Shown in pieces: positions 28,198-59,066 of a DNA stretch of 64,000 nt. Both the position numbers and the translations under genes were made by a program. Under the pieces are notes generated by a model, which ran no database searches, was not told the DNA's origin, and worked only from the letters and a program-made list of their open reading frames with translations. Each line of letters opens with the position of its first letter. Positions within the stretch are counted from its first letter, which is position 1. This DNA comes from Sphingobium sp. EP60837. Lineage in GTDB: Bacteria > Pseudomonadota > Alphaproteobacteria > Sphingomonadales > Sphingomonadaceae. The stretch spans positions 550,001 through 614,000 of the forward strand of contig NZ_CP015987.1 in the NCBI RefSeq assembly GCF_001658005.1, written 5' to 3'.

Positions 28198-31100
28198 TTG
28201 AGCGCTGTTTGGAAAATTGGTCGCATACTGGCCGGGCTTGGCGCCTTGGGCCTGTCTTCCTTGTTGTCGGCGCAGGGCAGCGGTGATCGACCGCTATTGC
28301 AGGACAGTTTCCGGATCGGCAGCGGAGGCGGTGCGCTGTGCCAAGCGCAGAGCGCCAACGGCGATCCTGCCGCCCGCACCATGTTCGATCGCGCCTGGAC
28401 GGTCGTCTGCCGTGACTCGGCTCGGCCGGTGGGGCAGCTCTATGCGCTTCGCCAGGGCGCGGGCGATAGCGACGACATTATCCTGCGACGGCTGGCCGCC
28501 TCGCGCGGCGCTGCAGTGAATTGCAGCGGGGCGGGCGGTGTGACGCTGCCAGATGTGGGACAGGTCACGGTGCGCAACTGCAGCAGCCAGGCGGGCGTCT
28601 ATCGCATAGTGACGGTGGCGCGCGGCAAGACGCTTTATGCGGCGCAGGGTTTTGCGCCTTATGCGAGCGCCCTGGATCTGGGCCTGCGTATTGTGGCCCT
28701 TGGGCGCACGGTGCCGGGCAAGCTGGACATCGTTACGACAGGCGGAGGCAATGGCGCGGCCTTCGCGCGGATGCAGGCGGCGTCACTCGACCCGCAGACC
28801 GTGTTGGCGGAGGGTTATCGCCGCAATGCCTCGGGCAATTATGCCGAAGCCGCCGAATTTTTCGACAGCCTGACCGACCGGCTGGCGCGCGATCCGGACG
28901 CGAATGCGATGAGCCCGGTTGAACGGGCGAACCGGGCGCATGAATATTTGGTCAATCATGGGCTGCAGCTGTCTAATCTTGGCCTGTTCGATCAGGCCGA
29001 TGCCGCCTTCGCGCAGGCGCGCGCAATTCCCACGGCTGACCCGGTGCAGCTGCGCCTCCGCCGCAATTTTGAAGCGGTGCATCATCTCAATCAGCAGGAT
29101 CTGCAAGGCGCGCTTGGCTTGTTGGACCAGTCGCCAGAAGGTGGCGTGGCGGTCGGCGCAGGCGACGACGGTGCGGTGATGCTGTCCAGCGACGTCGCGG
29201 CGGAATTGAGCAGCGGCGCGTCCGGAGCACGGGCGCTCGGCGTACGGCAGGATGCGAAGCTCGCTCCGGGCGAGCGCGCAGCGATCCTCGATGCGCAGGC
29301 GCAGCAGTTGCGCGGCACGATTCTGCGCTTGTCGGGCAAGCCACGCGAGGCGCGCGCGGTGCTGGCCCAGGCGCTGGCCGATGCGCAGCGCATCCGCGAC
29401 GGACGCGTGACGTCGATCACTCGCCTGCGCGCCCAACTGCTGGGCGAGATCGCGCTGACGCAGGAGGCCGAGGGCGATTTCGGAGGCGCGGAGGCGCGGC
29501 TCCACCAGGCTGTCACCTTGATCGCAGCGCAATATCCCGAAACGTTGGCGCTGAACGGCGCGCGGGCGCGCTTGGGCGCTTTCCTGGTACGGCGCGGACG
29601 GACACAAGAGGCGCTGAAAACCTATCGCGCGATCATGGCGTCCACGGTTGCGGGCCGGGGCACGCTGACGGCGATGGTGAACCAGTTGCAGCCCTATTTC
29701 ACGTTGCTGGCGGCGGAGATGCCCAGACGGCCCGAACTGGCGGCGGACCTGTTCGAGGCATCGCAGCTGCTAGTGCGGCCTGGTGCTGCCGAAACGCTGG
29801 AGCTGCTGAGCCGGGAATTGTCGGCTGGCGATGGAGAAGCGGCGCGGCTGTTTCGCCAGTCGGTCTCCCTCTCACGCGACGTCGAGCGCGGCCGCATCGC
29901 GCTCGCCCAACTACGCGAGGCTGGCAAGGACGACAGCGCCACACGGGAAGAAGTCGCGCGGCGGCAGGCGGAGCTTGATGCTCTCTCTAGCGACCAGGCG
30001 GCGACGCTGACAGCGCTGGCCGCCTATCCACAATATCGTGCGGTGAGCCCGCAGGTGTTGACGCTGGACGAGATGCGGGCAACGCTTAAGAGCGGGGAGG
30101 GCTATTACAAGCTCGCCCAGCTTGGCGACGCGCTTTACGGGCTATGGATCGATGCGCAGGGGGCGACCGGCTTCCGTTTGGGAACGAGCGCCAGCGAGGT
30201 GGCGCGCAAGGTCGCGGCGCTGCGCGAGACGATCTCGATCGCAGTAGGTGGCGTGCAGACCACCTATGCGTTGGACCTGCCCGTGGCGCGCAGCCTCTAT
30301 CTTGACCTCTTCGGCCCGGTTGATCAGCGGCTGAAGAGCGTTGGCCATCTGATCTTCGAGCCCGACGGCGCGATGCTGCAGCTGCCGGTCAACCTCCTGG
30401 TGGCGAGCCAATCCGGTGTGGATGCCTATGAAGCGCGGGTGGCGAAGGGGGGCGACGAGTTTGATTTTCGCGGCGTCGATTGGCTAGGGCGCGATCATGC
30501 GGTGAGCACGGCACTGTCAGCGCGGGCTTTTCGTGATGCACGGCTGACCGCGCCGTCAGGCGCGGCGCAAAGCTATATTGGTTTTGGCGACAATGTGCCG
30601 CTCGCAGGGCTCAAGCTGGCAGCGTTGACGCGCGGCGCCTTGCCCGGCGTCGGCGAGGATTGCGGCTGGTCGCCTGCGCAATGGAACCATCCTATCCCGG
30701 CGACCGAATTGCGGCGGGCGGCGCAGGCCATCGGCGGGCAGGGCAGCGAGCTGGTGACCGGCGGTGCCTTCACCGATGCGGCGGTTATGGGACGCGGCGA
30801 CCTTGACCATTTCCGCATCCTCCATTTCGCGACCCACGGCCTGGTAACGCCGCCACGTGCGGGATGCCCCGCGCGCCCGGCGCTGCTGACGAGCTTTGCC
30901 CCGAGCGGCGCTTCGGACGGGCTGCTGCAATTTGGCGAGATTTTCGACCTGCGGCTGAACGCCGATCTCGTGGTGCTGTCGGCTTGCGACACGGCCGGTG
31001 CGGCGGGCGCCGAAACGACGCGGGCGGCCGGGCTTTCCAGCGGCGGCGGGGCGCTGGACGGTCTGGTGCGCGCCTTTATCGGGGCGGGGAGCCGGTCGGT

Positions 31101-31314: not shown

Positions 31315-31318
31315 TTTG

Positions 31319-33361
31319 ATGGCGGCGCGGGCACTGCTGCGCCGGGGCGCACGCGTGGTGCAGGACGCGGGACGTTGGCGGCTAGCTGGAACAGCGCTGC
31401 TGTTGATGCTTGCACTCTTCGTGGCTGGATGGGATTGGACACGGCCCCTGGGTGGCGCGGGGTCGCAGCGCGAGATTGCGACGGCGGATGCCGAGCGCGG
31501 GCTGTATGACTGGCGGGCGGCCACCTTTGCGCCGCGCGTGGGTCAGGACCAGCGAGTGGTGATGGTCGTTTATGACGACCAGACCCTGATCGCGACGCGC
31601 AAGCGATCACCGCTCGATCGCGGGTTGTTGGCGCGGGCTCTGCGCAATCTGGATGCGATGGGCGCGAAGTCGATCGGCATCGATATCCTGTTCGATCAGC
31701 CGCAGGACGAGGATGCGCAACTGATTGCGGCGCTTCATGGGATGCGCACGCCGGTTTGGCTGGGCTACGCCAATATCGGCGACAATCGCGAACAGATCAT
31801 CTTTGAGCAGCAGCAATATCTCGACCGCTTCCTTACAAGGGCGCGCACCGATCGTGTCCGGCCTGCGAGCATCAGACTGGAGACCGACGCTGACAATGTC
31901 GCACGTAGCTGGCCCCGGCCGTTGGCAGGGCAGCCCCCGCTGCTATCGCTCGCGATGCAGCCTTCGCCGCGCTTTACCGATTATCGCGGCGCGATCCGCT
32001 TCCGCATGCCGCTGGCCCAAGCGGACGGGGCGGAGGAGCCGGTGATCCCTAGCCTGCAGATCGATCTGCTTGCTGACTCCGCCATGACCGCCGCGCTCGC
32101 ACCGATGGTGAAGGGGCGGCATGTGCTGATCGGCGGGGACATTGTCGATATCGACCAGTTCGAAACGCCGCTGTCGGGCAGGCAGGCGAAATCGACGATG
32201 ATCGGTCTTGAAGTCCATGCGACGATGCTGACGCAGTTGCTGGATGAAGCACTGCTGCCGGCGATTCCGGGATGGGCAATGTGGGCGGCAGCGGCGCTGG
32301 TGGTGCTGACGGCGGGGCTCACCAGCTTGGCGGAACTGCGCTGGTTCTGGCTTGTGCCCGCGCTGGTCGTGCAGGCTGGGGCGATTGTGGGCGCGCCGCT
32401 CTGGCTGCAGGCGCGCGGATGGGACACGAAGGGGTTGCCGGCCGCTGGTTGGGCGCTGGGCTGGGTGATCGCTTTTGCGGCTGTGAGCGCGGCGGCACGC
32501 GCGGTGACGTCGCAGCAGCGCCGCTTTGCGCAGGCGGCCCTTGGCAAATATCTGCCGCGCGACATAGCGGCGCAAATATTGGGTGACCCCGAGAAGCTCG
32601 CGCTGCACGGGGAAAAGCGGCCGATCTTCACCCTGTTTACTGATCTCGAGGGCTTTACCAAGCTTAGCCATGCCATCGCGCCGGAGATGGTGGCGCAATT
32701 GCTCAACCGCTATCTCGACATGTTGAGCGACGTCGTGCTGGCCCATGGCGGGACGATTGACAAATTCGTAGGCGATGCCGTCGTCGCCTTTTGGGGCGCG
32801 CCGATCGCGCGTGACGATGACGGACGCAAGGCGGCGCTGGCCGCCTATGCGATGTGGCAGGCGGGGGAGACGTTCCGCCGCGACCTGCCGCCGGGCGTCC
32901 CACCGATCGGGCGGACGCGCGTGGGGCTGCATCATGGCGATGCGATCGTCGGCAATTTCGGCGGAGAGGGACGGATCCAATATACTGCTCTTGGCGACAG
33001 CATGAATACGGCGGCTCGGCTTGAATCGGCGAACAAGGCGCTGGAGACGGCTGTGCTGGTGTCGCGCGAGGCGATGGAGCGGTCCGGCCTCAACTGGTGG
33101 CGGCCCATGGGGCGCGTAAGGCTGCGCGGACGGGCCACGCCAGTTGATCTGTTCGAGCCCGCGCCGGATTTCCCTGGCGAGGATCGCGCCCTGCTGGAGC
33201 AGGCTCTGGCCGCTTTTGACACCGAAGATGTGGAAGCGCGCGCGGCGGCGCTGGGGCAGTTGAAAGCGTTGGCAGACCGCTACCCGGAGGATGCGGCGCT
33301 CGCCAATCTGGTGTATCGCTATGAATATATTGGGGATGGAGAAATTTATGGTCTGGGCTAA
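31319..33361 (+). CDS. CHASE2-domain class III nucleotide cyclase
   Basis: A 680-aa membrane cyclase. ATG 31319 is used; a TTG sits one codon before. An N-terminal membrane helix (about 20-40) leads to an extracytoplasmic CHASE2 sensor (about 45-315; VVMVVYDDQTL, SIGIDILFDQP). Three further helices lie at about 318-395. The cyclase domain (about 430-600) has metal-binding FTDLEGFTKLS (Asp442) and KFVGDAVVAFWG (second Asp), then YTALGDSMNTAARLE. Product may be cAMP or cGMP. CHASE2 senses an unknown periplasmic signal. Two neighbouring genes encode a cyclic-nucleotide-binding protein and a CpdA-like phosphodiesterase. Confidence 0.93.
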   Translation: MAARALLRRGARVVQDAGRWRLAGTALLLMLALFVAGWDWTRPLGGAGSQREIATADAERGLYDWRAATFAPRVGQDQRVVMVVYDDQTLIATRKRSPLDRGLLARALRNLDAMGAKSIGIDILFDQPQDEDAQLIAALHGMRTPVWLGYANIGDNREQIIFEQQQYLDRFLTRARTDRVRPASIRLETDADNVARSWPRPLAGQPPLLSLAMQPSPRFTDYRGAIRFRMPLAQADGAEEPVIPSLQIDLLADSAMTAALAPMVKGRHVLIGGDIVDIDQFETPLSGRQAKSTMIGLEVHATMLTQLLDEALLPAIPGWAMWAAAALVVLTAGLTSLAELRWFWLVPALVVQAGAIVGAPLWLQARGWDTKGLPAAGWALGWVIAFAAVSAAARAVTSQQRRFAQAALGKYLPRDIAAQILGDPEKLALHGEKRPIFTLFTDLEGFTKLSHAIAPEMVAQLLNRYLDMLSDVVLAHGGTIDKFVGDAVVAFWGAPIARDDDGRKAALAAYAMWQAGETFRRDLPPGVPPIGRTRVGLHHGDAIVGNFGGEGRIQYTALGDSMNTAARLESANKALETAVLVSREAMERSGLNWWRPMGRVRLRGRATPVDLFEPAPDFPGEDRALLEQALAAFDTEDVEARAAALGQLKALADRYPEDAALANLVYRYEYIGDGEIYGLG

Positions 33362-34067
33362 GCGGGCGGCGGCGCTGGGCGTGGCGGCTATATTGGGCGT
33401 GGCGGGGCCTGCGCTGGCGGAGACTTTGGTGGTGCGCGCGTCCGGACCTTCGGCGCGGAATTATCCGCCGGGTGCGAAGCTGGCCGATGGCGGATCGCTG
33501 CTGTTGAAGGCGGGGGATGTGGTGACGCTGCTGGATGCCAAGGGCACGCGAACGCTGCGCGGGCCAGGACGCTTTGGCGTGACGGCGGCGGCGAGCGCTG
33601 CGCTTGCCAGCAATGTGACGCTCGCGGCGCTGCTCGACACGAAGCGCGTGCGACGGGCAAGGACCGGCGCGGTCCGCGGTGCGCTCGGCGAAGCGCCTGC
33701 CGTGGCGAAGCGGCCCAATTTGTGGCTTGTTGATATTGCGCAGCCGGGCGCCCTGTGCGTCGCTGATCCGCCTGCGGTTCGCCTGTGGCGCGTTGATGCA
33801 ACCAAGCCGCTGAGCCTGCGCATCAGCGGCGGGGGCGTACAGGCGGCGGCGAGCTTTGCGGCGGGCGAGACCATCGCTGCCTGGCCCGCTACGCTGCCGG
33901 TGAAGGATGGCGCGTCCTATCGCCTGGAGGCTGGCGGACGGTCCAGCGATATCCGTTTTGCGCTCCTGAACGCGGCCGATATCGGACTGGATGGGACGGC
34001 GGCGGCGCTGATCGCGCATGGTTGTCAGGCGCAGCTTGACCTGTTGGTCGAAACGGCAGCGCGTTAG
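33348..34067 (+). CDS. Secreted FecR-like protein
   Basis: A 239-aa protein from ATG 33348, supported by GGAG seven bases upstream; it overlaps the cyclase gene by 14 bases. Residues 1-24 form a signal peptide (WAKRAAALGVAAILGVAGPA, then LAETL). The mature N-terminus (YPPGAKLADGGSLLLKAGDV, VTLLDAKGTRTLRGPGRFGV) resembles the periplasmic FecR fold. The rest is beta-rich. There is no anti-sigma domain and no sigma factor gene beside it. Function in the secretion locus is unknown. Confidence 0.75.
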   Translation: MVWAKRAAALGVAAILGVAGPALAETLVVRASGPSARNYPPGAKLADGGSLLLKAGDVVTLLDAKGTRTLRGPGRFGVTAAASAALASNVTLAALLDTKRVRRARTGAVRGALGEAPAVAKRPNLWLVDIAQPGALCVADPPAVRLWRVDATKPLSLRISGGGVQAAASFAAGETIAAWPATLPVKDGASYRLEAGGRSSDIRFALLNAADIGLDGTAAALIAHGCQAQLDLLVETAAR

Positions 34068-34182
34068 GACTTGATAGCCGGGCCGGGGAAGTGCAGAGCG
34101 CCTGCACCTGGACGGTCGCAGCGATGGGGATGACAGGCCACAAGGCCGCTTCTCCGGCACGGTTGGGGGAAATGGGACGTCT

Positions 34183-35964
34183 ATGGGCTTGCTGGGGGCA
34201 GGGGCAATCACTTTCACGAAGCGCGCGCGGTTGGCGTTGGCTTTGACGGCGGTCGTGCCGGTGGCGGCAATGTCGCAGGTCGCGCCGCGCGCGCCGACGC
34301 GCGAGGAACTGTCACCGGCCGAGCGGCAAGGGGACGTCGCGCCGCAGGGAAGCCGACTGACGGTCGAAGGCGGGGTTGAACGTGCGCCTTGTTCGCTCGC
34401 CGATCCGCGCTTTGCCAATGTGACGGTGAACTTCGCCGCTGTGCAGTTTGACGGGCTGCGCGGAGTAGAGCCCGACGTGTTGAAGGACAGCTGGATCGAT
34501 CTGGCTGGCAGCGACGTGCCGATCGCCAGCCTGTGCGAAGTGCGGGATCGCGCGGCGACGGCGCTGCGCCAGATGGGCTATCTCGCCGCGGTGCAGGTGC
34601 CCCCCCAGCGGATCGAAAAGGGCGGCACGATCCGCTTCGACATATTGATGGCGCGGCTCGTTGCGATCGAGGTGCGCGGCGACGCAGGCAATAGCGAGCG
34701 GCTGATCGCGGCGCATATGGAGGCGCTGAAAGGACAGCCGCTGTTCAACGTGCATGAGGCGGAACGGCATTTGCTGCTGGCGCGCGACCTGCCCGGCTAT
34801 GACGTGCGGTTGGCGCTGCGCCCGGCGGGAACTGCGCCCGGCGAGGTGGTGGGTGAGGTCACGGTCGTGCGCCGCCGGGTGGAAATGGACGTCAATGTCC
34901 AGAATTTTGGTAGCAGGGCGGTAGGGCGCTTTGGCGGGCTGGCGCGGGTGCGCTTCAATGACCTGACGGGCATGGGCGACAGCACGGTACTGAGCCTCTT
35001 CAACACCGCGCAGCCTGACGAACAGACGGTGCTGCAGGCGGGGCATAGCATGGCGCTGGGCGGCGACGGGCTGCGCCTGTCGGGGGACTTTACCTACGCC
35101 TGGACCAGGCCGGACATTGACGGGTTGGACCTGTCATCAAAGACGATGATCGCGACCGCGGCGCTGTCCTACCCGCTGGTGCGGCGACAGGTGCATACAC
35201 TGCTGGCGAGCGGTGGGCTGGATGTGATCGACCAGGATCTTCGGATCGGCTCTGCGCCTTTGTCGCGCGATCGGCTGCGGGTGCTGTTCCTGCGGCTGGA
35301 GGGCGAGATGATCGATCCTGATAGTCTGATCAGCACGGCGGGCTATTCTGGGATCGAGCCGAAATGGCGGATGGGCGGCAATCTGGAACTGCGTCATGGC
35401 CTGGCGGGACTGGGGGCGAGTGAGGATTGCGGCAACGCGGCGACCTGCGTGCCGACGAGCCAGTTAGGCGGCGACGCGTCCGCCCTGGTCGTGCGAGCGG
35501 GGGTTCAGGCAGAGTATCGCCCGGCGCCGGCCCTGACCTTCGCATTGGCGCCGCGGGCGCAATATAGTCCGGATCAACTGCTGTCCTATGAGCAGATGAG
35601 CGCGGGCAACTATACGGTCGGGCGCGGTTATGATCCAGGCGCGTTGACTGGGGATAGCGGCGTGGGGGTCGCGGCGGAACTGCGCTATGGGCGGATCACG
35701 CCCAAGGGCCCGGGCGCGATCGCGTTGCAGCCTTTCCTCTTTTTCGATGCGGCGTGGGTTTGGCACCAGGGCAGCAGCTTTGCCGGGCTTGATCCGCAGA
35801 AGCTCTATTCAGTGGGCGGCGGGGTGCGGGCGACGTGGGACAATCATGCGCGGATCGACCTGACGCTGGCGACGCCGTTGCGGAAGGCGGCGTTCCAGAC
35901 GGAGCGGGGCGATACGCGGTTGCTGATGTCGGTGACGACGCGCATTCTGCCGTGGGGGCGGTGA
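34183..35964 (+). CDS. Two-partner secretion transporter (ShlB/FhaC/HecB family)
   Basis: A 593-aa outer-membrane TpsB. After a signal-like N-terminus (LALALTAVVPVAAMSQVAP) come two POTRA modules (about 80-240; VTVNFAAVQFDGLRGVEPDV, then TIRFDILMARLVAIEVRGDA) and the beta-barrel with VQNFGSRAVGRFGGLARVRF and GNYTVGRGYDPGALTGDSGV, the conserved VRGY-type loop. It should export the 2148-aa exoprotein whose ATG is 4 bases downstream. A second, unlinked TpsB is encoded at 7873. Confidence 0.93.
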   Translation: MGLLGAGAITFTKRARLALALTAVVPVAAMSQVAPRAPTREELSPAERQGDVAPQGSRLTVEGGVERAPCSLADPRFANVTVNFAAVQFDGLRGVEPDVLKDSWIDLAGSDVPIASLCEVRDRAATALRQMGYLAAVQVPPQRIEKGGTIRFDILMARLVAIEVRGDAGNSERLIAAHMEALKGQPLFNVHEAERHLLLARDLPGYDVRLALRPAGTAPGEVVGEVTVVRRRVEMDVNVQNFGSRAVGRFGGLARVRFNDLTGMGDSTVLSLFNTAQPDEQTVLQAGHSMALGGDGLRLSGDFTYAWTRPDIDGLDLSSKTMIATAALSYPLVRRQVHTLLASGGLDVIDQDLRIGSAPLSRDRLRVLFLRLEGEMIDPDSLISTAGYSGIEPKWRMGGNLELRHGLAGLGASEDCGNAATCVPTSQLGGDASALVVRAGVQAEYRPAPALTFALAPRAQYSPDQLLSYEQMSAGNYTVGRGYDPGALTGDSGVGVAAELRYGRITPKGPGAIALQPFLFFDAAWVWHQGSSFAGLDPQKLYSVGGGVRATWDNHARIDLTLATPLRKAAFQTERGDTRLLMSVTTRILPWGR

Positions 35965-43883: not shown

Positions 43884-44095
43884 GGGCTGAGCGGCATGGG
43901 TTGGTCAGGCTGCTGACGGGCGCTGGCGCAGATCATGTGGTCCTGCGCCCGAAAGTGCGGGATGGCGTCGCCATCTGCGCGGCGGCGAAGGTTCGGCCCG
44001 ACTTCCGCGGTCATAACGCAGCAGATCGGGGAGCCGGGCGGCAACCCGGTGGGGTTTCGGGTAGCGCGCTTCGCGGCGCTGGGGTTCTACGATGA
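43880..44095 (+). CDS. Possible small coupled ORF
   Basis: A GTG at 43880 overlaps the stop of the cytochrome gene (GTGA) and its own TGA overlaps the next ATG (ATGA), giving a 71-aa basic product (RAERHGLVRLLTGAGADHVV). The double 4-base overlap is the argument for it. The sequence is not recognisable, has no clear ribosome site and may be chance in GC-rich DNA. Confidence 0.3.
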   Translation: MRAERHGLVRLLTGAGADHVVLRPKVRDGVAICAAAKVRPDFRGHNAADRGAGRQPGGVSGSALRGAGVLR

Positions 44096-50900: not shown

Positions 50901-51928
50901 CGAAACTCGGCCATAATGCGAGCGTGGCGTCGAAGAATGCGACCTGCATGGCGCTCGCCACCAATCAGCCGGTTAATCCGCTGCGTAACACGAAGGAATT
51001 GCGCGCGATCAACCAGGAGCAGCCGTTCCTGCCGATCTACAGCTATGCGGCGGTGACGGACAGCGTCGAGGGGCTGATCATGGTCAATATCGAGACCATG
51101 GCCGATGGCGAATTCCGCAACAATTTCCTCAAGCGCGCGGTGACCTGGAACCCCGATGGTGTGCTGAAGGGCGCGCGGCATATCCAGCTGGCGGGGCAGA
51201 TCGCCTATATCACCGCTGATGTGGGGCTGGTGGTGGTGAACCTGTCCGATCCGCTGCATCCCAAGCTGGCGGCGGTGCGGCCCATGAAGGACGCGCGGGC
51301 GAGTGCGATCCAGTTCCGTTACCTGTGGGTGACGGATGCGGAGGGCCTGAAGCTGTTCGATGTGACGCGGCTGACCGACCCGGTGGCAGTGCCTTCGGCG
51401 ACCGTGCCGCTGGCCGATGCGCGGCGCATCTATCTGGCGCGCACCTATGCCTATGTCGCGGCCAAGACGGAGGGCCTCGCGATCATCAACATGACCAATC
51501 CGCTGCGGCCGAGCGTCTATGCGAAGGAGACGTTTGGCGGGCAGATGACGGATGTGGAGGATGTGATCGTCGGCACGACCAACGCCTCGCTCTTCGCCTA
51601 TGTCGCGGATGGGCGGAACGGCATGAAGGTGATCCAGCTCACCAGTCCCGCGAGCCAGCCCAATTTCTATGGCTTCTCCCCCGCGCCCAAGCCCGAGCTG
51701 ATCGCCTGGGCGCGCACGCCCTCGCCGGCGCTGGCGCTGTCCAAGGGCCTGGACCGCGACCGGGCGGTGGACGAGACGGGTGGGCAGATGGCGGTGTTCG
51801 GACGGATCGGATCGCGGCCCTTCACGCGGCCGGAAATGGAGCGGCTGTTCCTGAACGCCAAGGGCGTGCCTTACAAGGTCAGCGATGATGTGGACATGAA
51901 GGCGTGGCGGCCGCCGTTGCTGCGCTGA
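47909..51928 (+). CDS. Decaheme cytochrome c fused to LVIVD-type beta-propeller
   Basis: A 1339-aa secreted protein. Signal peptide at about 1-24 (MRALSALFLLILAALALPVA). Ten CXXCH heme motifs occur: CYSCH, CVDCH, CGSCH, CSGCH, CMNCH, CADCH, CKDCH, CFTCH, CGGCH and CSDCH. The C-terminal part, about 950-1270, has blade-like repeats (LRGEYMFVAEGKGGFRVYDV, IQLAGQIAYITADVGLVVVN, TYAYVAAKTEGLAIINMTNP) of the LVIVD family, seen in surface proteins. Fusion of a multiheme domain and a propeller suggests an extracellular or outer-membrane redox protein. TGATG overlap couples it to the beta-barrel gene. Confidence 0.93.
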   Translation: MRALSALFLLILAALALPVAILNASDAEKPVERVYAKTAPAPMSQTAEQVAAKSDGCYSCHTKTDEPSMHATPAVMLGCVDCHGGDATVRGDPSHGFEDAAYVAARDKAHVLPRYPGSWHYPSSANPKRTYTLLNREAPEFVRFVNPSDYRVAREACGSCHMQTIEAAERSLMASGAMLWGGAAYNNGIVPFKNYIFGEAYTKDGRPAKIVSPGSPPGTLTAEQKARGALSELYPLPNWQVTPPGDIFRVFERGGRNIGTQFAEIGLPNPTGSIQRLEEPGRPDLKQSSRGPGTGLRVAIPVLNLHKTRLNDPYMWFMGTNDQPGDYRHSGCSGCHVVYANDREPRHSLIYAQYGRDGQSATVDPTIAGKLAHEDGGHGALKGAHGETVKPDHPVALVEGSGPPAAGAKESGHPIRHTFTRAIPTAQCMNCHMHQPNIFLNSYLGYTMWDYESDAPLMWPEKQKYPTAAEVHQTLERNPEGAGPKGKWSDLDFLRNVYELNDKAKDTQFADYHGHGWNFRGVFKRDREGNLLDADGKIVSNDDPEKWRKKGEGKFVQPGVNPGKTVHMMDIHAEKGLQCADCHFAQDSHGNGFIYGEVANAIEIGCKDCHGTADAYPTLLTSGPAAPPKGTNLALLRNPDGKRRFEWFYDASGQRKLIQRSIVDPSLEWEVSLVKDSVDPANPHFNAKAARAKLMSRSGAEDGSFAFGPGIAKEDRAHGDDNMACFTCHLSWTTSCGGCHLPIEANWKTTLHHFDGEETRNFATYNPQVARDEMFQLGKHMTTKGNETAPVRSTSALVLSSTNINRERIYIQQPPISGIGFSSQAFAPHFPHTVRKTETKTCSDCHLSAKDDNNAIMSQLLLLGTNYVNFVGLNAWTGLEGGFEAIRVTEWDEPQAVIGSYLQKYAYPDYWKLHVEQNKRELKNWVRGKFFDKKASGETRPVEEFRNVVKGTAGRVGCLQLRGEYMFVAEGKGGFRVYDVASIANKGFSEPILSGPFSKLGHNASVASKNATCMALATNQPVNPLRNTKELRAINQEQPFLPIYSYAAVTDSVEGLIMVNIETMADGEFRNNFLKRAVTWNPDGVLKGARHIQLAGQIAYITADVGLVVVNLSDPLHPKLAAVRPMKDARASAIQFRYLWVTDAEGLKLFDVTRLTDPVAVPSATVPLADARRIYLARTYAYVAAKTEGLAIINMTNPLRPSVYAKETFGGQMTDVEDVIVGTTNASLFAYVADGRNGMKVIQLTSPASQPNFYGFSPAPKPELIAWARTPSPALALSKGLDRDRAVDETGGQMAVFGRIGSRPFTRPEMERLFLNAKGVPYKVSDDVDMKAWRPPLLR

Positions 51929-51952
51929 GCCGGGGTGGGCAGCCCGTGAGGG

Positions 51953-52066: not shown

Positions 52067-52338
52067 GGGCGGCCTCCTGCAGCGCTCGCAAGATGCTGGC
52101 GCCGCGGTATGGCGAACCTATCATGTTTCGGGAGCGAAAGCGCGGACGAGCTAGGCGGCGCGCTGCTCGACCATATACGGCCCCAGCCCATCTGACAGAC
52201 ATATTCCCCGCGCATTGAGCCGAAGAGTCCATTAGGCCGCCGAAAGGGCCTATGGTATATTGACCTATCCCGGCTGAATTTTTCCAGACATGCCGTGACT
52301 GAGAGAGGCTTGTGCTCCCGTTTGGCGAGGAGAGCGAC
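52067..52338. other. Intergenic region without a recognised gene
   Basis: About 270 bases with no supported ORF. It includes GGCCGCCGAAAGGGCC (imperfect inverted repeat, near 52232-52247) followed by an A+T-rich TATGGTATATTGACC that may carry a promoter for the gene at 52339. Confidence 0.4.
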
Positions 52339-52692: not shown

Positions 52693-52742
52693 CGCCCGAG
52701 CCCTCGCGGACCTTAGCCGCTGCAATCAGAATGGAGCAAATG

Positions 52743-52928
52743 ATGAACGCTAGACCAACGGAATTGACGGCCACGGCATCGACCGCATCGGCAGGCGCGT
52801 TGGTCAGGCTGCAAAGATTGGAAGCGCTGCTTAATATCGCGCGCGAAAAACTCGCGCTGGGCGAAGCATTGTCGCGCGCCGATATGCAGCGATTGAACGC
52901 CGCGCTGGACGACATGGCGGCAAAGTAA
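52743..52928 (+). CDS. Small helical hypothetical protein
   Basis: A 61-aa product from ATG 52743, with GGAG six bases upstream; ATG 52740 is also possible. A Thr/Ala-rich N-terminus is followed by two amphipathic helices (LVRLQRLEALLNIAREKLAL and SRADMQRLNAALDDMAAK). It lies 50 bases after the tail-anchored protein gene. Confidence 0.55.
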   Translation: MNARPTELTATASTASAGALVRLQRLEALLNIAREKLALGEALSRADMQRLNAALDDMAAK

Positions 52929-52995
52929 GTGGACGGGCGCCGGTCGCAGGCGGGGCCGTTTAGGAGGCGCGACCTTTAGGCATGCAGAGGTCAGT

Positions 52996-53844
52996 TCAGG
53001 CGGGCCGTTCGTCCATCAGCATCCGCACGAGCGGCTGCATCGCTGCATCGAATTTCGCCAGAGTGGTATGATCCCCAGCCGTTTCGAAATGCGTGACGAG
53101 GCCCGCATCGGTCCAGCGGTGCAGGGCATAGGCGGGGGCGTCCGCTATGATCATGGGGCGGTTGTCGGGCGTATCGGGGTCCATCGGGCGCAGGTCTAGG
53201 GCGAGTTGCGGCGCTGTCGAAGAGCAGATGGCCACCGCCATACCCATCCACGGCGCGGTGATGGTGCGATGGAGATGGCCGCAGACCAGGGCGGTGATGT
53301 TGGGCCGGTCGGCGATCACGGCAGAGAAGCGCTGGACCCAGGGTTCCTCCGGGTGCGTGTTCATCCAGTCGATGCCCACCTCTACGGGGGGATGGTGCAT
53401 GACGATGAGGGTGGGCGTCTCTGCATCCTCATCGAGCCGAGCGGCCAGCCATGCCGCGCGCGCGTCGCAGAAGGCGCCGCCGTGGCGGCCGGTTTCCAGC
53501 GTGTCGAGGATTATGATCCGGCGGTGGTCCAATGGGACGACATAGTGGACGAAGCCGCCCTCTTGCGGCACGTGCGGAAAGATCGCGGCGAAATTGTCCC
53601 GGTCGTCATGATTGCCCATACATGGCCAGACGGGGAAGGGGCATTGGGCGAATGCCTCCGCCAGCGCGCGGTAGCTTTCAAGGTCGCCATGGTCGGTCAG
53701 GTCGCCGGTGGCGAGCAGCAGGTCAGGGCGGTTGGGGCCGTCGATCAGCGCGCCAAGGACCTGGTCGAGCCGCTGCCGGTTTAGTTCGGCGGGATTGCCG
53801 GGGTCGAAGCCGAGATGAATGTCCGTGACCTGTGCGATCAGCAT
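52996..53844 (-). CDS. CpdA-like metallophosphoesterase
   Basis: A 282-aa calcineurin-like phosphoesterase. ATG 53844 has AAAGGA upstream. All metal motifs are present: AQVTDIHLG, ATGDLTDHGD, CMGNHDD, VMHHPP and CGHLHR. The order and spacing are those of CpdA, the 3',5'-cAMP phosphodiesterase, though related enzymes act on other phosphodiesters. It is the last gene of the operon that begins with a cyclic-nucleotide-binding oxidoreductase, 16 bases after the FHA-cytochrome gene. With the cyclase at 31319 it could close a cAMP circuit. Confidence 0.9.
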   Translation of the reverse strand: MLIAQVTDIHLGFDPGNPAELNRQRLDQVLGALIDGPNRPDLLLATGDLTDHGDLESYRALAEAFAQCPFPVWPCMGNHDDRDNFAAIFPHVPQEGGFVHYVVPLDHRRIIILDTLETGRHGGAFCDARAAWLAARLDEDAETPTLIVMHHPPVEVGIDWMNTHPEEPWVQRFSAVIADRPNITALVCGHLHRTITAPWMGMAVAICSSTAPQLALDLRPMDPDTPDNRPMIIADAPAYALHRWTDAGLVTHFETAGDHTTLAKFDAAMQPLVRMLMDERPA

Positions 53845-53860
53845 GGTCCTTTTTCCCCCT

Positions 53861-55657
53861 TCAACTGTCGCGGCCGATCCGGCGCGGCCTGTCCGCCTGC
53901 TCTCGTCTGATGGTTTGATCGGCGGGCGTCCATGGAGCGCCGTCGCCGATATGATAGCTGTGGCACATGGCGCAGCTGGACGGCACATCCGCCTTCGACT
54001 TTTCGCCACCATGACAGGTGCGGCAGCTGTCGATGCCTGGCAGCAGTAGTTGCTTGGCGTCGTGCGACTTGGGCGCGGCGTGGCAGCTTTCGCAGCTCTC
54101 GGTGCTGTGCGCCTTATGATCGAACCAGCCTGTCATCATGTAGCGCATCGGCTGGTTTACGGGGGTGACGTGCCAGCCGCCAGCGCCGCTCGTGACAGTG
54201 TGGCAGTCGTAGCAGGCGCCGCCCTTCGAGAAGACAGCGCGGATCGCGTCGTCGGCGCGGGAGGGACGCGCGGCTGCTGCGCCGAAATAGGCGTGATAAA
54301 GGCGGCCCTGTGCATAGTCGCCGGGGCGGCGGCGGGCCATGCCGCCGAGCGCGATGGGATGGGCGGGGCCAGTGGAGCGGTAATAGGCGCGCAGGTCCGC
54401 GACCACCTGCTCGGGCTGGCCGTGGCGCAGGGTGCGGACAGTGCCGCCGATCGTTTCGAAGGCGAGGCTGTGGCAGGACTGGCAGTCGCGCTCCATGTCG
54501 ACCGGCAGGAAGCGCACGCCGTCGGCGGTGGGACGGTGGCAATCCTTGCAGGCGAGGGCGTCGCCATAACCATTCTGAGCCTTCAGTGACCGCGCCATGC
54601 GGGCGACGCCGCCGGTCTTCGAGAGATGGATGTCGTGGGGGAATTTGAGGCCGCTGTCGTCCGAGGGCCTGGCGTCCAGGCCGGCCCGGGTGAAGCTGGG
54701 ATGCTTGCCCGGATTATATTGGACGAGGGCGGAAAATTGCGGGTGGGCGGTGCCGAAGTCACTCGCGTTCGCGAGGTTTGTATCCTTCAGGCGATCTTTC
54801 AGCGTGCCGTGGCAGTCGGTGCAGAAAGCCTGGGGCGCGGGCTGCATGGGGCCTGCGCCTTCATGTTCGCGGTGACAATCGACGCAGGCGCCTTCCGGGG
54901 GCTTGCCGAAGGTGGCGGCGACGCTGGCGAGGAGCTTGCCGCCGATGCCGGGCTCGGCGCGGGCCATGGCGATGCGCGCGGCGGGGGCGTGGTCATGGAC
55001 CGACTTGTGGCAGGTCTGGCAGGCGGAATCGCGGACAGAGACGAACGCCTTTTGGTGGCAGGTCTCGCATTTGCCTTCGAGCGCGTGGTGGGCCTGGCTC
55101 AAGGGGCCGGAGGACCATGCGCCGTCGCCTTTGACGCTATAGATGTTGCGCGTGTCGGCGGCGGCGCGGGTGGCGTAGCTGTAGATCGGGATGGCGAGGA
55201 AGCCGATCAGGATCGCCAGCACCATGCCCCAGGCGGTCAGGCGCTTGGGCGGGAGGTGCCGCGCGAGCGAGAAGACTTTGGCCTCCTCCTTTTCCTCCGA
55301 GGCTTCGGACACGGCATCAACGCGGCGGATCGAAAGGATGGTTGCGCCATCCTCCTGCCCAACGGTGACGCGATGGCCGCCTAAGCGCAGTTCAGCGCCT
55401 TTGCTGGTGTCGATCTCGGCGGAGCGGGTCGTGCGGCCTTCGAGATCAAAGCCGAGCGCGCCGGTCGCGCGGACGCGGATCGTGCGGCCGTCGATCTGCT
55501 CGATGCGGGCGTGGTCTGGCTCCAGCGCGAGATCGGGCAGGTGTATGTCATTCGCGGCCGCGCGGCCGATCGATAGCTGGGGCTTGGCGAGCGTGGCGGT
55601 GCGGACGATCTCGCGGCCGTCTGCGGTGAGGCTGATCTGGCGGACTATGAAGTTCAT
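53861..55657 (-). CDS. FHA-domain transmembrane decaheme cytochrome
   Basis: A 598-aa protein from ATG 55657 (weak GGTGA upstream); a GTG at 55669 overlaps the upstream stop (GTGA) and is an alternative. An N-terminal FHA domain (1-105) has LSIGRAAANDIHLPD and the DHARIE strand, the phosphothreonine-binding layout. After an acidic linker, one transmembrane helix (about 141-162) leads to the periplasmic part with ten CXXCH motifs: CETCH, CQTCH, CVDCH, CTDCH, CKDCH, CQSCH, CYDCH, CESCH, CRTCH and CAMCH. This puts a cytoplasmic phosphopeptide reader on a periplasmic electron carrier. Confidence 0.93.
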   Translation of the reverse strand: MNFIVRQISLTADGREIVRTATLAKPQLSIGRAAANDIHLPDLALEPDHARIEQIDGRTIRVRATGALGFDLEGRTTRSAEIDTSKGAELRLGGHRVTVGQEDGATILSIRRVDAVSEASEEKEEAKVFSLARHLPPKRLTAWGMVLAILIGFLAIPIYSYATRAAADTRNIYSVKGDGAWSSGPLSQAHHALEGKCETCHQKAFVSVRDSACQTCHKSVHDHAPAARIAMARAEPGIGGKLLASVAATFGKPPEGACVDCHREHEGAGPMQPAPQAFCTDCHGTLKDRLKDTNLANASDFGTAHPQFSALVQYNPGKHPSFTRAGLDARPSDDSGLKFPHDIHLSKTGGVARMARSLKAQNGYGDALACKDCHRPTADGVRFLPVDMERDCQSCHSLAFETIGGTVRTLRHGQPEQVVADLRAYYRSTGPAHPIALGGMARRRPGDYAQGRLYHAYFGAAAARPSRADDAIRAVFSKGGACYDCHTVTSGAGGWHVTPVNQPMRYMMTGWFDHKAHSTESCESCHAAPKSHDAKQLLLPGIDSCRTCHGGEKSKADVPSSCAMCHSYHIGDGAPWTPADQTIRREQADRPRRIGRDS

Positions 55658-55665
55658 GGTCGCGC

Positions 55666-56541
55666 TCACCAGTAGAAAAAGACGCTGACGATATGCGCGG
55701 TGAGCGCGGCGAGCAGGGCGAAGGTGGCGGGCACATGGACGTAGAGCCAGATTTCCAGCAGCGCCTTCAATTTCAGGTGGCGGCGGAGGCGTGCGAGCAT
55801 GGCCTGCTTGCGTTCGAGCAGGGCGTCGATCTTTTCCAAGGGCTCCTTGCCAGTGTCGGGGTGGTCGGCGGTCCAGTAGCGCAGGGAGGCTTGGGCTTTC
55901 GCGGTGGCGCAGCGGGGGTGGCGGCCCGAGAGGCGGGCGATCAGGCTGCCGCCGAATGGATCATCGTCCAGTGACTGGCGCACGAGCGCCGCCTCCTCGT
56001 GGGGCAGGGGCTGGGCGGCGTCGTGCAACTGCCGGTCGATGGAGCGGATGGCCTCGAGCATCTGCACCTGCGTCATTTCCGCGCGGTTGTTGCTGAGCGC
56101 GGTGGGGAGCGTCGCATAGACGATGATGCCGAAGAGGCCCGAGAGGATGACTAGCATCATCAATACATAGGCAAGCGTGTGGACGTTCCACCCGAGCTGG
56201 AATCCGGTGTGCAACGTGCCGATGACAATGAGGCTGAGGCCGAGATAGACATGGGCGCTGGTCCATGCCTTCAAGGACCAGCGGCCGCGCGTCATGGCGC
56301 GTTTGCGCAAGCCAAGCAGGGTGAGCCAGAGGATTAGCCCGACGCCGATCGTGCCCATGGTGTAGCCGTACCAACTGCCGCCATTATGTCGTGGGGTCAC
56401 ATCGATCAGCAAATAACTGGCGATGGCGAGGATGCAGATGACGGTCGCGATCTTCAGCCAGCGGAAATTGGCGTGGCGCAGGAAGCCGTCATGCAGCACC
56501 TCGCCTTTCACACGGCGGGTTGCGGTTGCGCGCGTGGCCAT
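55666..56541 (-). CDS. Membrane cytochrome-b-like protein
   Basis: A 291-aa integral membrane protein with about five helices (about 29-47, 61-79, 93-113, 124-146 and 270-290). Histidines near helices (SAHVYLGLSLIVIGTLHTGF, VHTLAYVLMMLV, YVHVPATFALLAALTAH) could ligate heme b across the membrane. A charged soluble loop (about 150-250) separates helices four and five. It is coupled by TGATG to the upstream oxidoreductase gene and ends at the FHA-cytochrome start, so it probably passes electrons from the cytoplasmic FAD/Fe-S protein to the periplasmic hemes. Exact family not recognised. Confidence 0.8.
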   Translation of the reverse strand: MATRATATRRVKGEVLHDGFLRHANFRWLKIATVICILAIASYLLIDVTPRHNGGSWYGYTMGTIGVGLILWLTLLGLRKRAMTRGRWSLKAWTSAHVYLGLSLIVIGTLHTGFQLGWNVHTLAYVLMMLVILSGLFGIIVYATLPTALSNNRAEMTQVQMLEAIRSIDRQLHDAAQPLPHEEAALVRQSLDDDPFGGSLIARLSGRHPRCATAKAQASLRYWTADHPDTGKEPLEKIDALLERKQAMLARLRRHLKLKALLEIWLYVHVPATFALLAALTAHIVSVFFYW

Positions 56542-59066
56542 CAGCTGGCTTGCCCATCGAGGCGGGCGACGGTGAGGAAATCCTCGGGCGAGACGCGGAT
56601 GGCCGCACCGGTCGGGCAGGCGCGCACGCAGGCGGGGCCGCCGTCAATGCCGGAGCACATATCGCATTTGATGGCTTTTTTCGGCTTTTCGACGCCGGGC
56701 TTGGCGTGTTTGTAGCTCCACTTTTTGGAAGGTTCGCCGGGGCCGGGGCCAGCGCCGAAGAACATCCAGCTCAAGAGGCCTGGCTTCTTCGGCGGGACGC
56801 TGTCCATGCGAATCACGCCATAGGGGCAGTTGCGCTGGCAATTGCCGCAGCCGATGCAGGTGTCGTCGATGAAGACTTCGCCGTCCGGGCCGCGATGGAT
56901 AGCGTTGGGCGGGCAGTCGGCCATGCAGTGCGGATGCTCGCAATGGCGGCAGCTGGTTGGCACATGGAGATGGGCGTAGGTGCGTCCGGCTTCGCGATCG
57001 AGGCGGGAAAGCCCTTCATGGCTGTCAGCGCACGCCTTCTCACAATTGTCGCAACCGACGCAGAGATGTTCATCGATGAGGAGAACGTCAGTGGCTTCAC
57101 CGATGCCGTTGTCGACGAGGAATTTGGCCGTCTCGCTATACATGTCGACGACGGTCGAGAAGCTGTCTTTGCGGCTTTCGATGAAGGCGTTGACGTCCTG
57201 CCGCGCGGCCATGTCTCGGCGCGCGCGTTCGAGCAAGGCAGGCTTGGCGGCCATCAGGCGGGCGAAGGCGTCGCCATTCAATTTGATGACTTCGGATTTG
57301 ACGGTCGCTTTGACCGTGGCGGTGCGCGGGCCGCCAGCGATCAGCGCCATTTCGCCCACATAGGAACCGGCAGGGAGGTAGGAGAGGAAGACGTTTTTCC
57401 CGCCGATCTTCTTCTCCACGATCATGGAGCCGACGCGGATGACATAGATGTCGCTGCCGAGATCGCCTTCGGTGAGGATCGCTTCGCCTGCCTTCACGGT
57501 CTTGATTTCGGCGCTGTCGAGCACTTCGGCGAGGTCAGCCGGGGTCAGGCCCGCGCCGAATAGCTGGAGCAGCTGCCGCTCGGTCGAGATGCGGGTGATG
57601 GCGCGCTTGGCGGGCGGGTTCGAGGACATGAGCTTCAGCGCCGCGGTGCGCGACACTTCCACCATGATCGAGTCCGTGCCCGCCCGCACGGTCGAGCCGC
57701 GGCGGCGGCCCGAGATGAGGCCGACCTCGCCAAAAATCGAGCCCTGGTCGATGGCGACGTGGGTTTCGGAGGCGACTTCGACCGACGCTTGGCCATCAGC
57801 GATACCGAACAGCGAGGAGCCGGGGTCGTGCTTTTCGAAAATCACCTCGCCAGCACGATAGGCGCGGACTTCGCTGTCGAGCATGAACTCGCGCATCTGA
57901 AGAGGAGACAGCCCTTCCAGGATCGCAACGTTGGTGCGGAGATATTCGAGCCATTCCGCGACGCTCTTCTTGCCCGGTAACGCGGCGAATTTGGCGGCGA
58001 GGATGGGTTCGTCGGCGGGCTTCAGCTCTTCATTGCCGTTGATGAACTCGACGACGTCATAGCCCTGGTTCATGCAGTGCTTGATCAGCGGATAGCCCGC
58101 CAGCGCGCCGATGACGAAGATGCCGGGCGCGGTGCTTTCGAACATCGGTGAGAGCTTGGGGAAGGCCAGACGATCGCTGCTCGTGAATTCGATGCCGCAG
58201 CTTTCGACGAAGGCGCGCGGCGGGGCAGAGCCCATGCGGGCGATGATGCGGTCGCACTTCATCTTCACCTCGCCATCGCGGCTGTCGAGGGTGATGAAGC
58301 CCGGCTCGATCTTCGCCGTGGTGCTTTCGGTCATGATGGAGAGGCGGCCCGCCTCGGCAGCGGCCATCAGCGCCTTGACGTTGGCGGGCTTGGCGCTGGC
58401 GAATTCGGTCGAGCGGTTGAGGATGGTGACGCTGTTCCCCTGCGCCTCATCGGCGGCGAGGCCCATGGCGTTTTCGATGCCTGCGTCACCCGTGCCGACG
58501 ACGAAGATATGTTCGTCATTATATTCTGCGGGATCATCCAGCTGATATTGGACATGAGGCAGGTCCGCACCGGGAACGCGCATCAGGTTGGGATTTCCCT
58601 GCGTGCCGATTGCCATGATGACAGCGTCGGCGATGACTTCGCGGCCCCCGGTCAGTGTCAGGCGGTAGGGCGGGGCGAGGCGCTGGATTTCCGTGGTCGC
58701 GGTAGTGCCGTCGCGCTTGCGTTCGACGATCTTCTGGACGCTGCCGGGGATGGGATCGCCGGTGCCGGTGATCGCCTTCACCTCGGCATTATAGGCGACG
58801 TTGATGCCTTGCGCCGCGGCTTGCTCGTTCCAGCGGCCCAGGATCGCCTCGCGCTTACCAGCTTCGAAATCGAAATCGGAACGAAGCACGAGCTGGCTGG
58901 GCGTCGCCATCACATGCTTGCCCTTCTGATATTTGAAGATCGTGTCGGACAGATGGTCCGTCTTTTCGATCAGAAGATGCGACAGGCCCAGCTGCGCCGC
59001 GCGCGCGGCCGCGCTCATCCCCGCCGGTCCCGACCCGACGATCGCGATACGCACGCGGTCAGTCAC
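56541..59066 (-). CDS. FAD/NAD oxidoreductase fused to two cyclic-nucleotide-binding and ferredoxin domains
   Basis: An 841-aa soluble protein. Residues about 5-345 are a two-dinucleotide-binding oxidoreductase: VGSGPAGMSA (10-19) for FAD and VVGTGDAGIENA (189-200) for NAD(P). CNB domain 1 (about 385-490) has FGEVGLISGRRRGSTV; CNB domain 2 (about 507-620) has GEMALIAGGPRTATV (571-585), the cAMP phosphate-binding cassette with Arg581. The C-terminus holds four cysteine clusters for Fe-S centres: 669/672/675/679, 706/709/714/718, 737/740/743/747 and 801/804/813/817. It likely oxidises NAD(P)H in a cyclic-nucleotide-dependent way. First gene of its operon. Confidence 0.93.
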   Translation of the reverse strand: MTDRVRIAIVGSGPAGMSAAARAAQLGLSHLLIEKTDHLSDTIFKYQKGKHVMATPSQLVLRSDFDFEAGKREAILGRWNEQAAAQGINVAYNAEVKAITGTGDPIPGSVQKIVERKRDGTTATTEIQRLAPPYRLTLTGGREVIADAVIMAIGTQGNPNLMRVPGADLPHVQYQLDDPAEYNDEHIFVVGTGDAGIENAMGLAADEAQGNSVTILNRSTEFASAKPANVKALMAAAEAGRLSIMTESTTAKIEPGFITLDSRDGEVKMKCDRIIARMGSAPPRAFVESCGIEFTSSDRLAFPKLSPMFESTAPGIFVIGALAGYPLIKHCMNQGYDVVEFINGNEELKPADEPILAAKFAALPGKKSVAEWLEYLRTNVAILEGLSPLQMREFMLDSEVRAYRAGEVIFEKHDPGSSLFGIADGQASVEVASETHVAIDQGSIFGEVGLISGRRRGSTVRAGTDSIMVEVSRTAALKLMSSNPPAKRAITRISTERQLLQLFGAGLTPADLAEVLDSAEIKTVKAGEAILTEGDLGSDIYVIRVGSMIVEKKIGGKNVFLSYLPAGSYVGEMALIAGGPRTATVKATVKSEVIKLNGDAFARLMAAKPALLERARRDMAARQDVNAFIESRKDSFSTVVDMYSETAKFLVDNGIGEATDVLLIDEHLCVGCDNCEKACADSHEGLSRLDREAGRTYAHLHVPTSCRHCEHPHCMADCPPNAIHRGPDGEVFIDDTCIGCGNCQRNCPYGVIRMDSVPPKKPGLLSWMFFGAGPGPGEPSKKWSYKHAKPGVEKPKKAIKCDMCSGIDGGPACVRACPTGAAIRVSPEDFLTVARLDGQAS

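Follow-up and report, generated by a model that had tools for sequence, protein, structure and literature searches.

Electron pathways of the porin-cytochrome kind have been studied mainly in metal-respiring bacteria, and two published accounts come close to the locus analysed here, a row of genes for multihaem cytochromes, a predicted cyclic-nucleotide-binding flavoprotein and two-partner secretion (TPS) proteins in Sphingobium sp. EP60837. The first is PCC4, described in silico by He et al. in 2017 (PMC5566968), whose text gives it a porin, periplasmic cytochromes with 4, 5 and 10 haems and an inner-membrane protein carrying two WX3HX13H motifs and SGXXG, the signature that the same source assigns to PCC3 and PCC4 inner-membrane proteins; in one subgroup (II) a pfam13247 iron-sulfur (Fe-S) gene lies upstream. 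The second is the "first group" of clusters from Sterkfontein metagenome-assembled genomes (MAGs; 2026), described as 11 clusters in which a decaheme gene of 4-5 kbp sits beside a porin of about 20 strands, with a "ferredoxin-NADP reductase" gene nearby in 7 of the 11 (PMC13264449). The whole stretch of DNA analysed, called the window throughout, comprises 64,000 nucleotides of contig NZ_CP015987.1 (positions 550,001-614,000), and the coordinates below are window positions. At 28198-59066, nine plus-strand genes stand opposite a four-gene minus-strand operon, the arrangement proposed by an earlier reading made from the letters alone (the sequence-only reading), and all 13 frames are open. That reading also gave the gaps as mostly under 120 bases or overlaps; one, at 43884-44091, measures 208 bases.

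Our preferred reading, in which we place moderate confidence, is that the core of this locus forms one trans-envelope electron-transfer system of the porin-cytochrome kind. The core is made up of two arms: on the plus strand, the multihaem cytochrome MHC1, an HbpS-like lipoprotein, a β-barrel and a decaheme cytochrome with LVIVD repeats (the LVIVD decaheme), and on the minus strand, a protein combining FAD, cyclic-nucleotide-binding (CNB) and Fe-S domains (FAD/CNB/Fe-S), a cytochrome b, a decaheme cytochrome with an FHA-like domain (the FHA-decaheme) and a phosphodiesterase. The system would combine a PCC4-type inner module with a different outer module and an entry enzyme responsive to cyclic nucleotide monophosphates (cNMPs), and the TPS, CHAT, cyclase and FecR-like genes would be accessory to it. 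This reading is carried by observations of gene content, conservation, co-occurrence, gene order and motif invariance.

The co-occurrence of the two arms is the most direct of these. An even sample of 236 Sphingomonadales genomes was searched with three markers, the LVIVD decaheme (E 1e-50), FAD/CNB/Fe-S (1e-100) and the FHA-decaheme (1e-30), and each was found in 51 genomes, exactly the same 51, spread over 19 of 69 genera; the remaining 185 had none, all counts being uncorrected for shared ancestry. The sequence-only reading had placed the cytochrome/porin arm and the FAD/CNB/Fe-S, cytochrome b and FHA-decaheme arm in one pathway and had set independent occurrence of the arms as the test beforehand. 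No such independence was seen, though eight genomes carry the arms far apart. Among 49 carriers compared for coordinates (G268 left out), the arms lie within 40 kb of each other in 28 and are farther apart or split in 21, of which 8 have both on one contig with about 89 kb to 2.2 Mb between them and 13 have them on different contigs. The different-contig cases may be assembly breaks, and G194 appears to be one. In region maps of the window, 42 other carriers and 7 same-genus carriers from a second sample (49 besides the window; G062, G063, G104, G113, G161, G229, G242 and G268 lie outside the maps), the eight core genes are present in 49/49 genomes, with MHC1 at 48/49 as the contig of G249 starts inside that arm. 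The distances of the LVIVD and FAD/CNB gene trees correlate at 0.61 over all pairs and at 0.87 in split genomes, values obtained without a species-tree control and given no weight. Both markers are complete in 8 of 37 same-genus genomes. In another genome of the genus, G016, all that is left of the LVIVD decaheme is a C-terminal stretch of 114 residues (G016:C19:28024-28365, 83% identical); FAD/CNB has no match there at 1e-100, and the whole system looks to have decayed.

Gene order outside the order points the same way. We compared 80 distant loci, the best of at least 548 confirmed relatives; they come from a scan of named genomes with an alignment led by a distant member, so that they are not a random sample. 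They are 44-52% identical to the lead sequence, and 19 end at contig boundaries. The LVIVD decaheme is found in 55/80, on the FAD/CNB strand in 53 of these 55, and in 48 of the 55 the detected genes run co-directionally as FAD/CNB, cytochrome b, FHA-decaheme, HbpS-like protein, barrel and LVIVD decaheme. Cytochrome b was detected in 66/80 and the FHA-decaheme in 67/80, contig ends accounting for part of the shortfall. Of the 25 loci lacking the LVIVD decaheme, 19 are limited by contig ends, 8 of these still showing some of the outer module, and L214, L218, L239 and L248 have a different porin, a 5-haem cytochrome and a tetrahaem MHC1 instead. Records named as carriers come from Sphingobium, Novosphingobium, Sphingomonas, Lysobacterales, Nevskiaceae, Alcanivorax and Rhodospirillales. 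In a phylum sample of 299 genomes, FAD/CNB (1e-60) was found in 9 and the LVIVD protein (1e-30) in 5, the 5 being a subset of the 9, and the genome samples contain no full LVIVD protein without a FAD/CNB protein. Because the two arms share their 51 genomes out of 236 regardless of the distance between them, and run together in one direction in most of the distant loci with LVIVD, comparative genomics strongly supports their being one system.

A few features of the distant loci deserve separate mention. In L264, a Caulobacterales MAG, the arms lie on opposite strands. It carries the Sphingomonadales set: one strand has the LVIVD decaheme, barrel, HbpS-like protein and MHC1, the second has FAD/CNB, cytochrome b, the FHA-decaheme and the phosphodiesterase, and a TPR gene is nearby; it is possibly a bridge between the split and colinear forms. 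A small secreted-looking protein (median 148 aa) occurs in 14/80 loci, directly after the FHA-decaheme in L200, and other conserved unlabelled neighbours look like local chromosomal synteny. The system or its inner module is also present in L229, L239 and L265, metagenome bins titled Klebsiella pneumoniae or Bordetella parapertussis, labels that are putatively wrong.

Table 1. Genes of the locus and its divergent neighbour, with window positions and the basis of each assignment
Feature	Position	Strand	Set	Basis
CHAT-domain protein	28198..31314	+	accessory	Pfam CHAT 6e-47
CHASE2 sensor with class III nucleotide cyclase	31316..33361	+	accessory	CHASE2 2e-28; guanylate/adenylate cyclase 2e-13
"FecR-like" protein, family not confirmed	33291..34067	+	accessory	no Pfam or NCBIfam match
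TpsB (ShlB/FhaC) TPS transporter	34183..35964	+	accessory	Pfam ShlB 7e-17; POTRA_2 1e-3, below cut-off
Probable TpsA secreted exoprotein	35969..42415	+	accessory	adjoins TpsB; NCBIfam filamentous-adhesin domain 5e-6 (weak)
MHC1, periplasmic c554-like cytochrome	42492..43883	+	core	Pfam cytochrome c554 8e-8
Double HbpS/GlcG-like lipoprotein	44092..46068	+	core	Pfam HbpS 4e-23
Outer-membrane β-barrel	46071..47909	+	core	about 18 predicted strands; frame opens at 46011
Decaheme cytochrome with C-terminal LVIVD β-propeller-like repeats	47906..51928	+	core	10 CXXCH; LVIVD 4e-12; cytochrome c3/c7
Predicted CpdA/SpdA-like cyclic-nucleotide phosphodiesterase	52996..53844	-	core in Sphingomonadales	Metallophos 2e-17; open frame reaches 54012
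FHA-decaheme: cytoplasmic FHA-like domain, one transmembrane helix (144-162), periplasmic decaheme	53861..55669	-	core	cytochrome c7/c3
Membrane cytochrome b	55666..56541	-	core	two WX3HX13H at 93 and 265; SGXXG at 134
Predicted cytoplasmic NAD(P)H:FAD oxidoreductase with two cNMP-binding domains and four-cluster [4Fe-4S] ferredoxin	56541..59066	-	core	Pfam Pyr_redox, two cNMP_binding, Fer4
TPR protein, CcmH/CycH/NrfG-like repeats	59210..60148	+		divergent neighbour of minus operon

Most of the domain calls of the sequence-only reading are backed by Pfam; the FecR-like protein has no Pfam match, and the TpsA has no Pfam TPS match. The FAD/CNB/Fe-S protein (841 residues) is the predicted entry point for electrons. 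Its flavoprotein part resembles YpdA and ferredoxin-NADP reductases, its cNMP domains resemble those of PKA/PKG and CRP, and its ferredoxin, which matches PF13247 at 5e-11, is like the HycB-type subunits of formate hydrogenlyase. In an alignment of 129 of these proteins, the window protein included, all 16 cluster cysteines are identical, as are both cNMP cassettes, G446/E447/R456 and G571/E572/R581, residues which we take to be those of the phosphate-binding cassette. Some sources name homologues (P0015 and others) "cGMP-dependent protein kinase 2", a misleading title that probably stems from the two cNMP domains. In L189 the protein is fused with cytochrome b in one frame of about 1118 aa, which resembles the fused Fe-S/inner-membrane protein gene reported for Oceanospirillum beijerinckii in PMC5566968.

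Cytochrome b, whose Ni_hydr_CYTB match (4e-6) is under the Pfam cut-off, has five histidines at 99-100% in 109 homologues, four of them in the two WX3HX13H motifs; both histidine motifs are found in 107/109 and SGXXG in 106/109. The FHA-decaheme matches the cytochrome c7/c3 and YscD/FHA models of Pfam under their cut-offs, its profile matches solved FHA domains (best 3.5e-10), and its 10 CXXCH motifs are invariant in 10 aligned sequences. A canonical phosphothreonine-binding FHA domain has a conserved set of Arg, Ser, His and Asn. Here G35-R36 is invariant and H53 is kept in 93% of 115 sequences, and the serine position is not conserved, so the FHA domain may be structural in role. The phosphodiesterase frame is over-long, with a start near 53844 judged from homology to S. 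herbicidovorans; the protein matches the NCBIfam models for SpdA (4e-40) and cAMP phosphodiesterase (7e-26), both below cut-off, and its metal-site residues are identical in 50 homologues.

From these features we infer a direction and order of electron transfer, an acceptor and a form of gating. NAD(P)H would reduce the FAD domain, from which electrons would pass through four [4Fe-4S] clusters to the di-haem cytochrome b. They would then cross the inner membrane, reach the tethered decaheme and, with MHC1 taking part, enter the module of barrel, lipoprotein and LVIVD decaheme, whose acceptor would lie at the outer membrane or beyond it. The sequence-only reading had proposed a course from NAD(P)H through the inner membrane to the periplasm and surface, and the cytoplasmic FAD and Fe-S domains, the di-haem cytochrome b, the tethered decaheme and the outer-membrane module are consistent with it.

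The two cNMP-binding domains would make entry responsive to a cyclic nucleotide, which the nearby cyclase would produce and the operon phosphodiesterase remove. Gating of this kind is plausible because the residues of the binding cassettes are invariant. No transmembrane-like helix and no DNA-binding domain match was found in the FAD/CNB/Fe-S protein, and a cyclic nucleotide would therefore act on the enzyme itself. The CHASE2 cyclase is the probable source, its residues D443, K483, D487, D561, N564 and R568 being identical in 20 aligned orthologues; these are presumably the positions that an adenylate cyclase would use for its metal and purine sites. We put forward only tentatively the fuller scheme in which the second messenger gates the pathway directly, an extracytoplasmic signal sensed by CHASE2 being turned into cNMP, the twin CNB domains opening or closing export and the phosphodiesterase resetting the system. 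To our knowledge, no characterised conduit has an apparent cyclic-nucleotide switch on its entry enzyme. If the scheme is true, export would be controlled at the protein level, beyond transcription alone, and signal would be linked directly to respiration. The present variant belongs to ordinary soil, plant-associated and marine Proteobacteria, and it would open reduction outside the cell or in the periplasm to genetic study in organisms not considered electroactive.

MHC1 has 4 CXXCH motifs and one CX4CH, and the LVIVD decaheme and FHA-decaheme have 10 CXXCH each, which bears out the earlier count of at least 24 canonical motifs (24 counted, plus the CX4CH). In 2000 shuffles of each of the three cytochromes the mean was 0.004, 0.006 and 0.033, far below what is observed. 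The MHC1 alignment profile matched 1bvb in the PDB at 3e-6. The HbpS-like protein has no CXXCH, and a lipobox-like motif, by a crude pattern, is found in 82/107 of its homologues. The barrel sequence has no PDB match up to E 1, and its structure model, of moderate confidence, has 18 strands. The LVIVD decaheme has no usable match among PDB sequences (best E 0.45). AlphaFold2 modelling of its residues 30-1229 gave a poor result, with a mean predicted local distance difference test score of 40, and a good one only in the C-terminal propeller-like part. The elements of an outer-membrane conduit as set out in PMC6148476 can be placed on these proteins in part. The model supplies the outer-membrane β-barrel, and MHC1 and the FHA-decaheme supply, by sequence, the multihaem periplasmic c-type cytochrome. 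For the outer-membrane lipoprotein with a redox cofactor there are two partial candidates, the HbpS-like lipoprotein without CXXCH and the LVIVD decaheme without a lipobox.

Several observations weigh against the preferred reading. Those from the outer module concern its place in the envelope: by VIA-align structure comparison the moderate-confidence barrel model is nearest to AlgE/OprD-type channels, and the 50 structural matches listed, which exclude nothing, contain no known conduit or MtrB-type barrel. In the window the LVIVD decaheme is without a lipobox, and a crude pattern finds one in only 9/102 homologues, so that the protein may or may not be exposed on the surface. Others concern composition. 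The outer genes lie upstream of FAD/CNB instead in six loci (L227, L231, L240, L249, L265, L269); the inner module occurs without the LVIVD decaheme in the four PCC4-like loci and in L243 and L268 (10 kb downstream flank); and L222 has, within 8 kb downstream, a FAD/CNB gene without cytochrome b or FHA-decaheme. In the phylum sample, 4 of the 9 FAD/CNB-positive genomes lack the LVIVD module, and a Sphingopyxis indica plasmid has an LVIVD protein (69%) and no FAD/CNB match at 1e-100, a result for the plasmid only, its chromosome not having been searched. The cyclase was matched near only 9/80 distant loci, and the 51/236 figures carry whatever the carriers' shared ancestry contributes. In these samples, then, the inner module can serve other outer modules.

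It is possible, though on balance doubtful, that the core is a periplasmic reductase and not a conduit. The barrel would then admit a soluble substrate, and the LVIVD decaheme would be a substrate-specific periplasmic reductase fed by the inner module, analogous to the uptake role discussed for the Geobacter ExtI porin and oxyanions. The channel-like barrel model and the scarcity of lipoboxes both fit this account, and so does the pattern of conservation. Measured as median identity to the window in distant loci, the LVIVD decaheme is highest at 57.5% (55 loci), followed by the barrel (53.6%), HbpS-like protein (48.7%), FAD/CNB (47.4%), cytochrome b (41.8%), MHC1 (36.4%, 18 loci) and FHA-decaheme (30.3%). 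It would be unusual for the outermost cytochrome to be the best-conserved part, because in the Desulfuromonadales, as described in PMC6148476, it is the extracellular components that vary and the periplasmic ones that are conserved. High conservation of the LVIVD decaheme points to a specific substrate, or to a location fixed within the periplasm or barrel. Among named families the nearest to this protein is ExtM, from a selenite/tellurite operon, a match made by 9/9 members; classing it as ExtM was rejected, at 65.5 bits against a curated cut-off of 800. Against a reductase, the putative conduit protein ExtB is also given as an 18-strand barrel (PMC6148476), a decaheme adjoining a porin is the very criterion by which PMC13264449 recognises porin-cytochrome complexes, and no active site was identified in the LVIVD decaheme.

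It is improbable that the whole 31-kb row, TpsA and TpsB included, is one system in which a secreted TpsA carries or anchors the cytochromes. The sequence-only reading had placed the TPS, CHAT, CHASE2 and FecR-like genes in the same system, and their enrichment in core carriers stands: in the 236 genomes TpsA (1e-50) is found in 23/51 carriers against 3/185 others, and the cyclase orthologue (1e-120) in 43/51 against 8/185, Fisher values for both ignoring kinship. The cyclase lies no more than 32 kb from one of the arms in 34/43, as does TpsA in 16/23, and TPS genes, at looser thresholds, are found in the fetched regions of 21/42 carriers of other genera; where the arms are split, some genomes have them beside the LVIVD arm and others beside the FAD arm. 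Against a single system, 28/51 carriers lack TpsA at 1e-50, and TpsA and the cyclase also occur without cytochromes in G005, G201 and genus g34. In several genera (G184, G194, G144, G252, G169 and G136) MHC1 follows the cyclase and FecR-like genes without intervening TPS genes. Around the 80 distant loci, in flanks that extend 10 kb at most and are often shorter, the cyclase was matched in 9, CHAT in 2 and TpsA, TpsB or FecR-like genes in 0, the cyclase and CHAT counts at E 1e-5 becoming 9 and 1 at a stricter cut. The TPS pair itself has a TpsB with POTRA and barrel beside a TpsA whose first 400 residues give no Pfam TPS match at E values up to 1. TpsA contains zero CXXCH motifs, and its candidacy as a redox protein is rejected on that ground; the proposal that the filament is scaffold or redox target is not supported. 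The TPS, CHAT, cyclase and FecR-like genes are an associated but separable module outside the electron path, one that we take to serve signalling and surface proteins and to have been recruited often to the electron system.

Electron uptake, with the same chain running inward to oxidise an extracellular donor such as Fe(II) or Mn(II), is by our estimate quite improbable. It is the direction modelled for PCC3 and PCC4 in the text of PMC5566968, whose inner-membrane protein signature is present here; the inner end, however, consists of a flavoprotein of the NAD(P)H type carrying four [4Fe-4S] clusters, which is more than a cytochrome b linked to quinone, and PMC13264449 suggests export for its clusters because most of their hosts looked heterotrophic. 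That the arms are two unrelated neighbouring operons, as their facing orientation and probably separate transcription in Sphingobium might suggest, is extremely improbable and, as far as comparative genomics can do so, is ruled out by co-occurrence and gene order.

ParA, ParB/SopB-like and RepA (RPA family) genes at 1007-4780 make it probable that the contig, 1.13 Mb long in a four-contig genome, represents a second replicon or megaplasmid. Relatives occur in 12 plasmid records of Sphingobium, the replicons measuring about 0.9-1.3 Mb. The S. herbicidovorans plasmid pMSHV, by its RefSeq annotation, has the corresponding genes in the same order and strands, with two small additional genes between the arms that have no match in the window. 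This plasmid is typed as conjugative in PLSDB. The TPR gene beside the minus operon is present in the fetched regions of 47/49 mapped genomes and possibly has a role in cytochrome c assembly. Downstream of it, at 61100-61840, lies a second metallophosphoesterase gene, 95% identical to its pMSHV counterpart, which is followed there by another ShlB gene. At 6438-9474, a c-di-GMP-I-GGC riboswitch (RF03167, 67 bits) stands just upstream of a gene for a 403-aa protein without a Pfam match, and the same region holds a second TpsB/ShlB gene; this is another TPS pair, possibly controlled by cyclic di-GMP.

The sequence-only reading knew of no described system with this combination, a claim that has to be narrowed, since PCC4 and the Sterkfontein "first group" are close published relatives. 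With the ext systems the resemblance is looser. The extHIJKLMNOPQS cluster of Geobacter sulfurreducens, as presented in PMC5877670, likewise has a porin-like protein, several multihaem cytochromes and a cytochrome b, and the LVIVD decaheme matches the ExtM model weakly. It differs in electron entry, no rhodanese or Rieske family being among the matches of the window proteins. With extABCD and other outer-membrane conduits, as set out in PMC6148476, the locus shares a periplasmic multihaem cytochrome, an 18-strand barrel and an outer-membrane lipoprotein, differing in that the lipoprotein is HbpS-like without CXXCH and the large decaheme lacks a lipobox in the window. The Sterkfontein "first group" is likely the same kind of cluster, matched by description only and not by sequence: the decaheme gene here is 4,023 bases and lies next to a porin, whereas the account in PMC13264449, in the portions available, mentions no cNMP domains or co-occurrence tests.

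PCC4 shares most with the inner module. As far as PMC5566968 sets it out, both have a porin, decaheme and tetrahaem-type periplasmic cytochromes and a membrane protein with two WX3HX13H motifs and SGXXG, and the pfam13247 gene upstream in subgroup II is matched here by the FAD/CNB/Fe-S protein and the gene order. In L214, L218 and L248 the same inner-module genes accompany a porin and a 5-haem cytochrome, as they do in L239, where the contig ends inside cytochrome b. The differences lie in the outer module, where an HbpS-like lipoprotein, another barrel and the LVIVD decaheme replace the 5-haem cytochrome, giving haems of 4+1, 10 and 10 in place of the 4, 5 and 10 of that description. Profile comparison found no relation between the barrel and the four PCC4-like porins (probability 0.7%; assigned to PCC4 by layout only), or between the LVIVD decaheme and the 5-haem cytochrome of those loci. 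Classing the locus as PCC4 was rejected, its cytochrome set and porin differing from those that define PCC4. The terms "cyclic nucleotide" and "FHA" are absent from the main text of PMC5566968. A full-text literature search returned LVIVD papers of which none, by title or start of abstract, concerns this cytochrome, and none for LVIVD, multiheme and cytochrome together. As far as these searches show, the full gene set, its exact co-occurrence and the entry enzyme with twin cNMP-binding domains and cyclase and phosphodiesterase partners are new. The system is real and widespread; its arms were rightly joined by the sequence-only reading, which extended it too far in taking in the TPS filament, and it is not wholly undescribed. 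Judged by its genes, the core looks like a porin-cytochrome pathway related to PCC4 with a different outer module, a widespread and little described gene set that probably moves electrons from the cell interior through both membranes.

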